A stretch of DNA of 64,000 bases from an uncultured Spirochaetales bacterium (GTDB lineage Bacteria > UBP6 > UBA1177). The translations under genes were made by a program, and so were the position numbers. Positions within the stretch are counted from its first letter, which is position 1, and the number at the start of each line of letters is the position of its first letter. The notes below the pieces were generated by a model. The model was not told where the DNA came from. It saw nothing but the letters and a program-made list of their open reading frames with translations, and ran no database searches. Shown in pieces: positions 35,172 through 40,884 of this stretch. The DNA lies in assembly GCA_902774115.1 (NCBI GenBank), contig CACYHH010000006.1, forward strand, positions 62,001 to 126,000, read 5' to 3'.

Positions 35172-37157
35172 TTATTCTGCATTTTTAACACATTTGACAA
35201 AATTCTGATCCCAACTCTTTGCTGTTGCGCTTGCCTCGCCATAGATGGGAGTGAGAGCCCATGCCTGTGCCTGATTGCTGGCATCGGTTGTAGAAGACCA
35301 GAAACTGTTGTAATCAGTAGTTTCAACTATTTCCGGGAAATAAGAATAAGGTTCTTCCTCCTTGTCGAAGTTTAACAGTGACATAAGTTCGTTTATGTTG
35401 GGAAGGCGCCAGCCGCTTTCTGTTTCGTTGTTCAAACCCTTGCAGTAAGTCAGGGCCTGTTCCCAGCTCTTGTTTGTAATTTTTTCTTTCTGCCAGATAA
35501 GCCCTGTCCGTTTATCCTTTACGGTTGTTGCGGATACTTCAAAATCTTCAGCTGTTGCCTGATAAAGTTTTTTCCCGGAAACACAGACTACTTTGTATTT
35601 GTTTGAAGAGCTCCGGCTTATTATAGTTCCGGAATAAACCTTGAAAGCGCGATATCTTGAGCCGCTGTCTATCCAGAGAAAAACCCAGTCTTCTGCCGGC
35701 ATATTTGTGAAAATTGCGTGAGTCGCAGGACCGTTTTTGCTGCGATCGACAATTGTCTGAAATTCAAAAGGATGCGGAACACGCCAGGTGTTTATGCCGG
35801 CGTAGGCGGCGTTATTTAAATCTGTGCAATGACGGTCTGCCTGATCCCCGTAGTATGTGGTGGCAGACGGTGCAGGTTCCCAAATAAGACCGGTGTTGTT
35901 GTCAACAATAACGTTTTGTTCTTCAACAGGTGTTTCAAGTGTAAAACTTTGAGCTGTGCAGCTGCTGTTATTTTGAGCATCCTGACCGTAAAAAGCTGAA
36001 TCTTCTGCCGGGCATGAGATGGTTTCCGTGTTGTTATAACATAAATTCTGGTGTGTGCATATGTTAGCCAGATAGGGGACACAAATTGAGTCGTTCCAGA
36101 AATATTTTGCGGAGCATTTGTATTTGCAGTTTCCTTCGGTTTCGCTGTATTCAGGGGAAATTTCGCCAATCCAATCTCCACCGGAATATTCCATAGAGTA
36201 GGAATCTTCACCGTTCCATTCAGCGTGAGCAACCGGTATTTCATCGCAGCTGACGGTTTTTGTGCAGTTACTTTCTGTTTCGTTCCAATCTCCGCCGGCG
36301 AGATCGCATTTTTTCTCTTCGGTCGGTTCGCACGCATCGTTGTTCCAGTAATAACCGTTTTCGCAGCCGCAGGTAAATGTTGTTGCTCCGGTCGGATTGC
36401 AGTTGTTATCAGAAAAATCGATAATTAAACACGGATTATCGTCTGTATTATTACCGCACCCGTTTACACAGTTTGATTCGTGCCAGTAATAGTTCTCTGC
36501 ACATTTGTATTTGCAAGTTCCTTCGGTTTCACTGTATTCAGTAGTGAAAGTTTCTCCGTTCCATTCGCCGTCTACATATACCAAAGAATAGGAATCTTCA
36601 CCGTTCCATTCAGCGTGAGCAATCGGTATTTCGCCGCAACTGACAGTTTTTGTACATTTGTTTTCCGTTGAATTCCAATTTCCTCCGGCTGTACTGCAGA
36701 TTTCTTCGGCAGTAGGTGTGGTCGGGTTAGTCGGTTCGTCTGTCGGGTTAGTCGGTTCGTCCGTCGGATTTGTTGGTTCGTCTGTCGGGTTAGTCGGTTC
36801 GTCCGTCGGGTTAGTCGGTTCGTCTGTCGGGTTAGTCGGTTCGTCCGTCGGATTTGTTGGTTCGTCTGTCGGGTTAGTCGGTTCGTCCGTCGGATTTGTC
36901 GGTTCGTCTGTCGGATTTGTCGGCTCATCCGCCGGATTTGTCGGCTCATCCGCCGGATTTGTCGGCTCATCCGTCGGATTTGTCGGCTCGTCCGCCGGGT
37001 TAGTCGGCTCGTCTGTCGGTTCCGTGTCGGCGTCAGTCTCTATAACATCTGTGTCATCAGTCGGTTCACTTTCTTTTTTGTCTTTTTTGCCGCTGCCGCA
37101 GCTGATGACAAAAATCAAAGCTGAAAAAATTGCCAAAGAAACAAAAAATTTTTTCAT
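35172..37157 (-). CDS. Large repeat-bearing lipoprotein with two DUF1566 domains
   Basis: The start ATG 37157 follows AAGGAG; an earlier in-frame ATG would put that site inside the gene. The signal (FSALIFVISCG) is a lipobox. Residues about 37-145 are Thr/Asp/Pro/Glu-rich with 14 copies of DEPTNP[TA], probably an extended stalk. Two Cys-rich modules of about 80 residues follow, each with T-K-T-V-S-C-x-E-I-P-[IV]-A-H-A-E-W-N-G-E-D-S-Y and C-K-Y-K-C. Last come two DUF1566 (Lcl C-terminal-like) domains with the TGLIW ... WRLP pattern. DUF1566 is found in many surface lipoproteins of unknown role. A stalk-and-head surface protein is inferred. ahcY follows after 15 bp. Confidence 0.8.
   Translation of the reverse strand: MKKFFVSLAIFSALIFVISCGSGKKDKKESEPTDDTDVIETDADTEPTDEPTNPADEPTNPTDEPTNPADEPTNPADEPTNPTDEPTNPTDEPTNPTDEPTNPTDEPTNPTDEPTNPTDEPTNPTDEPTNPTDEPTNPTDEPTNPTTPTAEEICSTAGGNWNSTENKCTKTVSCGEIPIAHAEWNGEDSYSLVYVDGEWNGETFTTEYSETEGTCKYKCAENYYWHESNCVNGCGNNTDDNPCLIIDFSDNNCNPTGATTFTCGCENGYYWNNDACEPTEEKKCDLAGGDWNETESNCTKTVSCDEIPVAHAEWNGEDSYSMEYSGGDWIGEISPEYSETEGNCKYKCSAKYFWNDSICVPYLANICTHQNLCYNNTETISCPAEDSAFYGQDAQNNSSCTAQSFTLETPVEEQNVIVDNNTGLIWEPAPSATTYYGDQADRHCTDLNNAAYAGINTWRVPHPFEFQTIVDRSKNGPATHAIFTNMPAEDWVFLWIDSGSRYRAFKVYSGTIISRSSSNKYKVVCVSGKKLYQATAEDFEVSATTVKDKRTGLIWQKEKITNKSWEQALTYCKGLNNETESGWRLPNINELMSLLNFDKEEEPYSYFPEIVETTDYNSFWSSTTDASNQAQAWALTPIYGEASATAKSWDQNFVKCVKNAE
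36720..37013 (-). repeat. 14 x 21-bp coding tandem repeat (DEPTNP[T/A])
   Basis: Fourteen in-frame 21-bp units encode the heptad inside the lipoprotein at 35172-37157. Units 1-4 (36720-36803) and 5-8 (36804-36887) are an identical 84-bp block except for one base, which points to recent expansion. Because each unit is a whole number of codons, copy-number change would alter stalk length without breaking the frame. Confidence 0.95.
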
Positions 37158-37240
37158 TTTTCTCTCCTTAAAAAAGTTGAACAAATAAAAACGCGGGATT
37201 ATAGAAAAAGGCTGTAAAAAGGCAAAAAACGGAGGAAACG

Positions 37241-37872: not shown

Positions 37873-38550
37873 TTAAGTTGAAAAATCTTTTTCTATAAAT
37901 AGTTCAAAAGGCGCGATCCCGTTTTTGTATACCGTTTCAAAAGTGTCATTGTGAATTGCTATTTTGTGCATATCCTGCGACATCCAGCGGATAAAATCCA
38001 GAATCAAGTCGTGTTTTTGTTCCAAGTCAGTCCAGTGCAGGATTCGCCTGTGATGAGCTATTCTATTCCGCAAGAAACGGATTTCGTTAAGATTTTTCTG
38101 AACTGAAATGGTGCTTTTCTGTTCCGAAGGGCACCCATGCAAAATATTTTTGATTATGAAGAATTGAAATTTTTGAGAGTTGTATTTTTTCCCCATGAGA
38201 GCGACCCAAAATCCGAGTGTAAGTTCCGAAACAAGACGGCTGTGAGAGTATGTTTGATTTTTTTGCACAATCTTTGTTTTGGCTTCATCAATCATTCTTC
38301 TCTCGGTTTCAGTAAGAAACATTGCATCGTTCCATTCCTTAACATCGAAAAATTTTGCAAGAGCTTTATCTATCGAATTTCGCAGCGTTACCTCGAAAAT
38401 ATTTATTATCGGATACAGGCTTTCGGATAATTCTATGTTGTAAATATATCTTGCAAGTGCTATCTCATTGCTTGCTCCGTCAGCTTTATAGGCTGCAAGA
38501 CGTTCCGGTGAAATTGATTTTTCTATGCTTTCGAATGTCGATTTATCCAT
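37873..38550 (-). CDS. Abi_2-like protein with HEPN RNase-type motif
   Basis: The 225-residue protein matches the layout of abortive-infection Abi_2/AbiD-F-like proteins: ARYIYNIELSESLYPIINIFEVTLRN at residues 33-58, SRLVSELTLGFWVALMG in the middle and FLRNRIAHHRRI near residue 160. RNRIAH (161-166) is the R-x4-H signature (RNxxxH) of HEPN ribonucleases. Family members act in phage defence or as toxins that cleave RNA. No partner gene is next to it: msrA is convergent and the other side is gene-free. It is likely a solitary defence gene. The ribosome site is weak. Confidence 0.75.
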   Translation of the reverse strand: MDKSTFESIEKSISPERLAAYKADGASNEIALARYIYNIELSESLYPIINIFEVTLRNSIDKALAKFFDVKEWNDAMFLTETERRMIDEAKTKIVQKNQTYSHSRLVSELTLGFWVALMGKKYNSQKFQFFIIKNILHGCPSEQKSTISVQKNLNEIRFLRNRIAHHRRILHWTDLEQKHDLILDFIRWMSQDMHKIAIHNDTFETVYKNGIAPFELFIEKDFST

Positions 38551-38559
38551 AATTTATCC

Positions 38560-38587
38560 TTGACTTTCAAAAAATTTCTTCTATTAT
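38560..38587 (+). promoter_or_regulatory. Promoter of candidate small RNA
   Basis: TTGACT (38560-38565), 16 bp, TATTAT (38582-38587). The predicted start falls near 38594, just before the hairpin at 38599-38654. Confidence 0.6.
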
Positions 38588-38593
38588 TATCGC

Positions 38594-38654
38594 CATGAGC
38601 CACGGTATCCTTTCTCCTGCTTTGCAGTGCCAGGGACCGTGGCAGTCTCTTTTT
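38594..38654 (+). ncRNA. Candidate small RNA of about 60 nt
   Basis: The gene-free stretch 38551-38886 (336 bp) holds a self-contained unit: a near-consensus promoter, then GCCACGGT (38599-38606) pairing with ACCGTGGC (38636-38643), enclosing a second perfect hairpin CTGC-TTT-GCAG (38617-38627), and a TCTCTTTTT tail ending at 38654. No reading frame of note lies inside. A short regulatory RNA is the best explanation; a leader with an attenuator for the tkt gene 230 bp downstream is the alternative. The rest of the gap is AT-rich, with the tkt ribosome site at its end. Confidence 0.55.
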
Positions 38655-38886
38655 AATTCCCGCACAGTCTTTTTTGAATATAATTTTGAAAAATTCTTTT
38701 GTAAAAAAGCGAAAAACTCAAGTATTATAATAAAAATTTTCTGAAATAAAAGTAAAAATATTGGAAATTAGATTTTTGTTTGATGCTAACGATCTTTGAA
38801 AGCGGCGTCTAACATCATTTTTATCTTGTCGTTTCGCTGTTTTTTTGTATATTCAGTCGATTTGTGAACTTTTTATGGAGAAAAAA

Positions 38887-40884
38887 ATGGCTTTTCCCGA
38901 TAAAATTTCTGAAAAAAGCGTGAATACCGTCCGTGTTTTGTCGGCAGATATGATTCAGAAGGCGAATTCTGGTCATCCCGGGCTTCCGATGGGTGCGGCT
39001 CCTGCGGCTTATACGCTCTGGAAGCGGCATCTCAAGGTTTCTCCGGTGCATCCCGACTGGATAAACCGAGACAGATTCGTCCTTTCGGCAGGTCACGGCA
39101 GCGCGCTTCTCTATTCGATGCTCCACTTGGCGGGATATAAACTTTCGATGGACGATCTGAAAAATTTCAGGCAGCTTGGCAGCAAAACTCCGGGACATCC
39201 CGAATTCGGCGTAACTCCGGGCGTTGACGCTTCCACTGGCCCGCTCGGTCAGGGTGTCGCGAACGCGGTCGGCATGGCGATAGCTGAAAGAATGCTCGCC
39301 GCAAGGTTCAACAAACCGGGATTCGAGCTGATAGACCACTTTACCTACGCACTTCTGGGTGATGGCTGCTTGATGGAGGGAATTGCCTCTGAAGCTGCAT
39401 CGCTTGCAGGTCATCTCAAACTCGGAAAACTCATTCTTCTCTACGATTCAAACGATATTTCGCTTGACGGTCCGACTTCGATAACTTTCACCGAAGATGT
39501 CAAAAAGCACTTTGAAAGCTACGGTTTCCAGGTACTCAGCGTTGCTGACGGCAACAAAGACCTCAAATCGATCGACCGCGCGATCGCGAAAGCAAAGAAA
39601 GAGCTGTCAAAACCGACACTTATCATCGTCAAAACGACTATCGGCTTTGGTTCGCCGAACAAGGCGGGAAGCTCATCTTCACACGGTTCTCCGCTCGGTG
39701 CGGACGAACTTGCGGCAGTGAAAAAGGGTTTCGGAATGGAGCCCGACAAATTTTTCTTTGTCGATGACGATGTGAAAAAGGATTTTGCTTCGATAAAAAG
39801 GGCAGGGAACAGGGCTTTTTCGGCTTGGAACAAACTTTTTGCAGAATATTCGGCGAAATATCCCGAAGAGGCGGCTCTGTTCAAGGATATGCAGGAACTT
39901 AAAGTTGAAAATCTGGACAAGATACTTCCGAAATTCGAAGCTGGAACGAAAATGGCGACACGTGCCGCCGACGGAAAAGTCCTTGCTGCTCTCGGCAAAG
40001 CCGTTCCGTGGCTCGTAGGCGGCGATGCCGACCTCAGCTGCTCGACGAAAACGACGATTTCTGGCGAAAAATGGATCTCGGCTGACGATTTTTCGGGGAG
40101 AAACATCCACTTCGGAGTCCGCGAACACGCGATGGGAGCTATTGCAAACGGCATTTTCTACCACGGAATGCTTAAACCTTTCACAGGAACATTCTTCTCG
40201 TTTGTCGACTATATGAGACCTCCGATAAGGCTTGCCGCTTTGGCAAAACTCGGCTCGATCTTCCTTTTCACTCACGATTCGCTTGCAGTAGGCGAGGACG
40301 GTCCGACACACCAGCCGGTAGAACAGCTTGCAACGCTGCGCTGTATTCCAGATCTCGAAGTATGGCGTCCGGCCGATGCGAACGAAGTTTCGGTAGCTTG
40401 GAAGCATATCCTCGAAAACAAAAATCAGCCTGTAGCGCTCATTCTGACGCGTCAGGATGTTCCAGTCATCGACAGAACGAAATACGCCGCGGCTGAGAAC
40501 GCGCTCAAAGGTGCGTATGCGATACTTGATGAAGCAGCTCCCGACACGATAATCATAGCAACTGGTTCCGAAGTCCATATTGCGCTTGATGCTGCCGAAA
40601 CCTTGAGAAAAGAGGGCTTGAAAGTGCGTGTCGTCAACATGGTTTCACGTGAAACATTTGAAAAACAGCCGGCAAAATACAGGGAATCGGTGCTTCCGAA
40701 ATCGGTCAAAAACCGCGTTGTCGTTGAAGCCGGAACAAGTTTCGGCTGGGAAAAATACGCAGGCGACAAAGGAAAAATCATCGCAGTAGATGCTTTCGGA
40801 ACATCCGCTCCGGGAAGTCAGGTAATGGAAAAATACGGGTTCACCGCTGAAAATATCGTAAAAATCGCAAAGACCATAAAATAA
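38887..40884 (+). CDS. tkt: Transketolase
   Basis: This thiamine-diphosphate enzyme of the pentose phosphate pathway moves two-carbon units between sugars. The start ATG 38887 has GGAG 6 bp upstream; an earlier in-frame start lacks support. Motifs: [48 protein letters not shown], the ThDP site [19 protein letters not shown] followed by [49 protein letters not shown]. The length is about 665 residues, normal. It is a single gene ending convergently with galE. Confidence 0.95.

Follow-up and report, generated by a model that had tools for sequence, protein, structure and literature searches.

The window, the stretch of 64,000 nucleotides analyzed here from an uncultured bacterium of the phylum UBP6, carries a small RNA gene that comparative sequence analysis identifies as conserved, and this gene lies head-to-head with a gene (abi) for an Abi_2/HEPN protein. 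The RNA and the divergent abi gene likely constitute a toxin-antitoxin and phage-defence module that is AbiF-like and resembles type III systems. This reading builds on what was observed, namely the anatomy of the RNA, its conserved promoter and structure, its linkage to and parallel divergence with abi, and the AbiF-like predicted fold of the protein.

The RNA gene is located within a gap of 336 bp, which a sequence-only reading had described as gene-free; the flanking start codons are those of abi (38550, minus strand) and of the transketolase gene tkt (38887, plus strand). The predicted RNA extends from 38594 to 38656 on the plus strand; we placed its start about 7 nt past the −10 box and its end within the U-tract. 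The R1 covariance model matched 38594-38654 with 84.7 bits, the window copy being a member of the model's own alignment. The −35 box TTGACT (38560..38565) and the −10 box TATTAT (38582..38587) are separated by a 16-bp spacer and show 10/12 matches. The outer stem P1 consists of 8 bp, and its arms, GCCACGGT (38599..38606) and ACCGTGGC (38636..38643), are 100% complementary. Inside it are a middle helix of the RNAalifold consensus, formed by CCTT (38609..38612) with AGGG (38632-38635), and the inner hairpin P2, CTGC-TTT-GCAG (38617..38627), with the arms CTGC at 38617-38620 and GCAG at 38624-38627. A pyrimidine-rich strand, TCCTTTCTCCTG (38608..38619), is conserved in the alignments, and its TTCTCC is invariant in the group of RNAs designated as class a. 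The minimum free energy was −23.6 kcal/mol, compared with −14.95 ± 2.53 for shuffled sequences (z −3.4; 1 of 200 as good), and the expected number of chance occurrences of the stem pattern in the window was 0.00. The promoter and the 8-bp stem enclosing the CTGC/GCAG hairpin were found where they had been reported.

The same reading had proposed that promoter, structure, and terminator follow each other directly. All the parts are present, including a terminator U-tract, TTTTT (38650..38654), within the T-tract segment TCTCTTTTT (38646-38654), and the T-run is kept in all class-a copies. However, the U-run starts 6 nt beyond P1, so that P1 alone is not a textbook terminator. An alternative hairpin, AGGGAC/GTCTCT, abuts the U-run, and termination may occur via this hairpin.

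No Rfam family accounted for the RNA. The Rfam scan of the window gave a tRNA as its single match, and the RNA was without any Rfam 15 family over the gathering cut-off, in agreement with the earlier statement that it resembles no recognised common RNA. Scans of the region and its relatives at strict and loose thresholds also gave no family for the RNA. The covariance model of the abiF RNA (RF03085), which does detect the phage phiC2, gave nothing at E ≤ 10 either in this region or in its own genome, and E. coli chromosomes searched for the element were without a match.

The element was found by DNA search in most genomes of the rumen genus (UBP6) to which the window belongs, and the R1 model detected about 24 strong copies in this genus and further copies in rumen Treponema. 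Elsewhere in the phylum UBP6, R1 gave nothing beyond four weak, near-noise matches (22.7-24.1 bits), which lay in or against ORFs or in unrelated DNA and were rejected as chance. Two pattern matches on viral contigs were also rejected, as they lay inside a phage portal-like ORF and lacked support from R1.

In the oriented alignment, the promoter, the stems, and the U-tract were common to all copies. The −35 box (TTGA[CT]T or TTGTTT) and the −10 box (TAnnnT, at 16-18 bp spacing and 9-12 nt before P1) were kept in 26/26 distinct loci, a count that leaves out one further pattern match consisting of coding DNA. The −35 box was kept where the Shine-Dalgarno sequence of abi lies elsewhere, indicating that the box is not merely the reverse of that sequence. 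The stems, conserved in dozens of loci, were maintained in the homologous regions by compensatory changes. In P1, A-U was replaced by G-C in 10 sequences and G-C by A-U in 8; in P2, U-A was replaced by C-G in 3 sequences, as CUG/CAG to CCG/CGG changes in three loci; and the middle helix showed C-G to U-G and U-A changes. None of the slid pairing registers that we compared was as good as the P1/P2 register. Plus-strand U-G wobbles occupied 24 cells versus 0 for A-C, a count biased by the setting of the helices from plus-strand folding, and with P1 and P2 only the numbers were 8 vs 3. The comparative evidence, with promoter, stems, and U-tract all kept, thus strongly supports the proposal that a self-contained sRNA gene of about 60 nt lies on the plus strand.

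The abi gene (37873..38550, minus strand) encodes a 225-aa protein, which is the partner of the RNA and its probable toxin. It matched Abi_2 (PF07751) at E 1.9e-6, with 28.7 bits against a cut-off of 25.6. The best PADLOC profiles were PD-T4-5 (E 3e-14) and AbiD (3e-6), both of them plasmid-borne phage-defence Abi proteins. The protein carries the Rx4H motif R161-N-R-I-A-H166, of which R161, N162, and H166 are invariant in 24 sequences. In a Foldseek search with the AlphaFold model (pLDDT 93.7), the top PDB match was the PbAbiF dimer bound to its ncRNA (8vz6_A; probability 1.00, TM 0.63, E 0.017), and the other matches listed had probabilities ≤ 0.15. AbiF was detected by the fold search alone and was not picked up when PDB sequences were searched with a profile. 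The predicted fold of Abi is thus AbiF-like, and its Rx4H motif is intact. Also in the window, the minus-strand ORF at 35172-37184 contains 14 copies of a 21-bp repeat (36721-37019) encoding PTDEPTN-type repeats of a lipoprotein-like surface protein.

The start codon of abi is 9 bp from the −35 box of the RNA gene, and the Shine-Dalgarno sequence AAGGAT (38556..38561, minus strand) overlaps this box. Within the genus, this subfamily has 16 intact abi genes whose upstream DNA could be read. Each of the 16 had the RNA at the same divergent place, and no intact gene of the subfamily was found without it; the proteins encoded by these genes are 39-100% identical. Three broken abi genes (G013:C39, G006:C5, and G001:C14) retain the RNA. 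The pair is also present in rumen Treponema. Across 21 loci, RNA and protein distances were correlated (r = 0.91, Mantel p ≤ 0.0005), a result that alone is no proof of interaction since linked genes share their history, while RNA distance hardly followed the host phylum (r = 0.16). This indicates that the RNA and abi move together between UBP6 and Treponema. The divergent AbiF-like HEPN partner had escaped the sequence-only reading, and with it the supposed intergenic sRNA becomes, on sequence grounds, a probable RNA antitoxin. A second RNA-abi pair lies beyond the window, 43 kb from the first on this contig (G000:C6:143838-143899; L002/L046), and the two proteins are 75% identical. In a Treponema variant (L071/L072), an extra hairpin (GGTCTATCGAAAGATAGC) is inserted near the inner stem, upstream of abi.

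For the proposed module, we infer transcription, binding, neutralisation, toxicity, and trigger. The RNA would be driven by its own sigma70 promoter and would fold as one long hairpin, with P1 outermost, then the middle helix, and P2 innermost, exposing the conserved pyrimidine-rich strand. It would then bind the HEPN RNase dimer and hold the nuclease inactive; the nuclease would be freed when the RNA is lost, for example upon phage infection. The RNA promoter region also contains −10 boxes of the minus strand; together with the overlap of the −35 box and the abi Shine-Dalgarno sequence, they suggest that the RNA and toxin promoters probably compete. Such competition would favour the antidote over the toxin.

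The AbiF of C. difficile is toxic, and direct binding of the RCd22 RNA, the stem structure of which is essential, neutralises it (PMC12373285). According to a review, nucleotides C32 and U38 of AbiFr, in a single-stranded bulge, inhibit PbAbiF (PMC12737573). A candidate for the inhibitory contact here, by analogy, is the pyrimidine strand that is invariant (UCCUUUCUCCUG). The pair described here shares with AbiF-AbiFr and RCd22 an Abi_2/HEPN protein with an Rx4H motif (here with an AbiF-like predicted fold), a small structured RNA that adjoins the gene and has its own promoter and terminator, and an outer stem, an inner stem, and an asymmetric internal loop. In contrast, the AbiF RNAs known so far are encoded upstream of abiF on its own strand (e.g. 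phiC2) and are co-transcribed with the toxin, whereas every class-a and class-b locus has the RNA in divergent orientation. The abiF RNA is about 100-130 nt long and contains two abiF motifs, compared with a single hairpin of about 60 nt here, and known AbiF proteins are longer (287-297 aa) and score 166 bits with Abi_2. The RNA is therefore outside the RF03085 family and the gene layout differs from that of AbiF-AbiFr. The pair nevertheless most likely works like AbiF-AbiFr, as judged by analogy. PD-T4-5 is described as a distant relative of AbiF/D that is toxin-antitoxin-like and gives Abi defence; the part of that description available to us mentions no RNA partner (PMC9519451), whereas an RNA stands beside Abi here. 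In the type III systems ToxIN, CptIN, and TenpIN, the RNA antitoxin directly binds an endoribonuclease and keeps it inactive, and the same would be expected here. ToxN-family toxins are not known to be HEPN proteins, and the RNAs that accompany them consist of tandem repeats transcribed together with the toxin.

An unlikely alternative is type I-like antisense control, in which the abi mRNA would start beyond the RNA gene, its leader would be complementary to the whole RNA, and pairing would block expression or cause decay. The divergent arrangement of a small RNA and a nuclease toxin is also seen in the type I system SymE-SymR, in which SymR is antisense to the symE mRNA. Consistent with antisense control, the RNA and abi are on opposite strands, promoter-like sites are present on the minus strand beyond the RNA (38705-38677 and 38756-38727), and UAUCCUU of the RNA could pair with the abi Shine-Dalgarno sequence AAGGAUA. 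Antisense control would cover the pairing with PBECR3 described below, too. However, antisense pairing needs no conservation of sequence, and the loop strand is nearly invariant though the proteins fall to 39% identity, so that conservation points to the RNA itself. The match to the Shine-Dalgarno sequence is lost in several copies. In addition, the DNA separating the RNA from abi holds near-consensus −10 boxes of the minus strand (e.g. TGCTATAAT in Treponema); an abi mRNA that starts from these would have a short leader without a complement to the RNA. Antisense control is thus less likely than an AbiF-like antitoxin.

The RNA might instead be an independent trans-acting sRNA of the CU-rich, anti-Shine-Dalgarno type that is simply carried along with abi. 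The conserved strand UCCUUUCUCCU does resemble anti-Shine-Dalgarno sequences, and the RNA outlives the loss of abi in some genomes. We regard this as very unlikely, as the RNA tracks the protein clade and not the host and, except on one cut contig, is missing wherever a genome has neither abi relics nor PBECR3. Similarly improbable is a cis-acting leader or attenuator in the 5′ UTR of abi without an independent plus-strand RNA: the hairpin also folds on the minus strand, but with a z of −1.6, against the plus-strand value given above, though over a longer stretch, and both the conserved plus-strand promoter and U-tract and the bias of the U-G wobbles point to the plus strand. That the RNA, on the same strand and 230 bp upstream of tkt, is a leader or regulator of that gene is scarcely credible and was largely refuted, since a conserved promoter region belonging to tkt stands by the start of this gene in genomes with and without the RNA, and the RNA is found at tkt in three genomes only and goes with abi elsewhere. 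The promoter-like stretch directly before the transketolase gene (TTTTTATCTTGTCGTTT...TTGTATATTCAGCCGATTT, window positions 38810-38890) is conserved in ten genomes of the genus.

Related RNAs were found beyond the genus. A divergent RNA occupies the same place beside an Abi protein of about 30% identity in Proteobacteria (Deefgea, Rheinheimera, Xanthomonas, Azoarcus, and Duganella) and in one Dehalococcoidia genome. These class-b RNAs (model R2) have the core GTCCTCTCCCRG...CYGGTGA within an outer stem, show compensatory changes as well, and contain GTCCTCTCCC as the counterpart of the pyrimidine-rich strand. Class b occurs on at least 63 plasmid records, adjoining genes annotated as 'Abi family' or 'hypothetical', and none of the 40 plasmid matches listed had an annotated feature under the RNA. 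Rfam scans of the related RNAs gave none over the cut-off. R2 did not detect class a; common descent of the two classes thus rests on position, architecture, and a bridging locus (L086/L044) recognised by both R1 (E 0.013) and R2 (E 0.19). By eye, fifteen further diverse plasmid abi genes mostly had a promoter-hairpin-terminator array of other sequences at the same place, and no RNA was recognised in the 330 bp upstream of seven remote Abi_2 relatives (L078 and L087-L092). The upstream divergent strand folded better than control DNA (p = 1e-4), to which terminators contribute. Another RNA class (CCACGGGACT...GCTTCCCCCCGAGGACA) lies upstream of and divergent from Abi in P. aeruginosa, Zymomonas, and E. 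coli plasmids (L136, L137, and L139). On the Aeromonas salmonicida plasmid pS44-1 (L099, 3016-3071), a class-b RNA stands beside csy3/cas6f and I-F-like CRISPR repeats; neither an annotated abi gene nor an abi ORF was found adjoining it, and from its sequence it appears to be an orphan, antitoxin-like RNA.

In four genomes (G001, G007, G012, and G014; L014-L017 and L143-L146), the RNA lies divergently before a stand-alone 171-175-aa nuclease assigned to PBECR3 (PF18812, E 3.9e-15). All 4 such intact genes found carry the RNA, and these copies share a one-base deletion. The RNA was not detected at 30-aa PBECR3 remnants in G000:C7 and G011:C48. The PBECR3 nuclease is unrelated to Abi, and the pairing suggests, at the level of sequence, a toxin swap; either the RNA is able to serve another toxin or the promoter region alone was captured at PBECR3. 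An RNA purely fitted to AbiF would be no simple explanation of this pairing, which to that extent counts against the proposed AbiF-like module. Tentatively, and with more doubt than confidence, we suggest a large unannotated superfamily of divergent RNA antitoxins that accompany small AbiF-like HEPN toxins in many phyla and whose scaffold was re-paired with PBECR3.

If true, this broader reading would imply an RNA antitoxin able to change toxins, and the PBECR3 pairing provides a test case for the control of unrelated nucleases by a single RNA. Such a divergent RNA family would supply the missing second component for many plasmid genes annotated as 'hypothetical' or 'Abi family', and would explain why such abi genes may fail or poison cells if cloned without their upstream DNA. 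CRISPR-Cas13 has been proposed to descend from AbiF-RNA pairs, and a second, divergent RNA family tied to AbiF-like proteins of compact size would add to the known RNA partners that could have given rise to guide RNAs.
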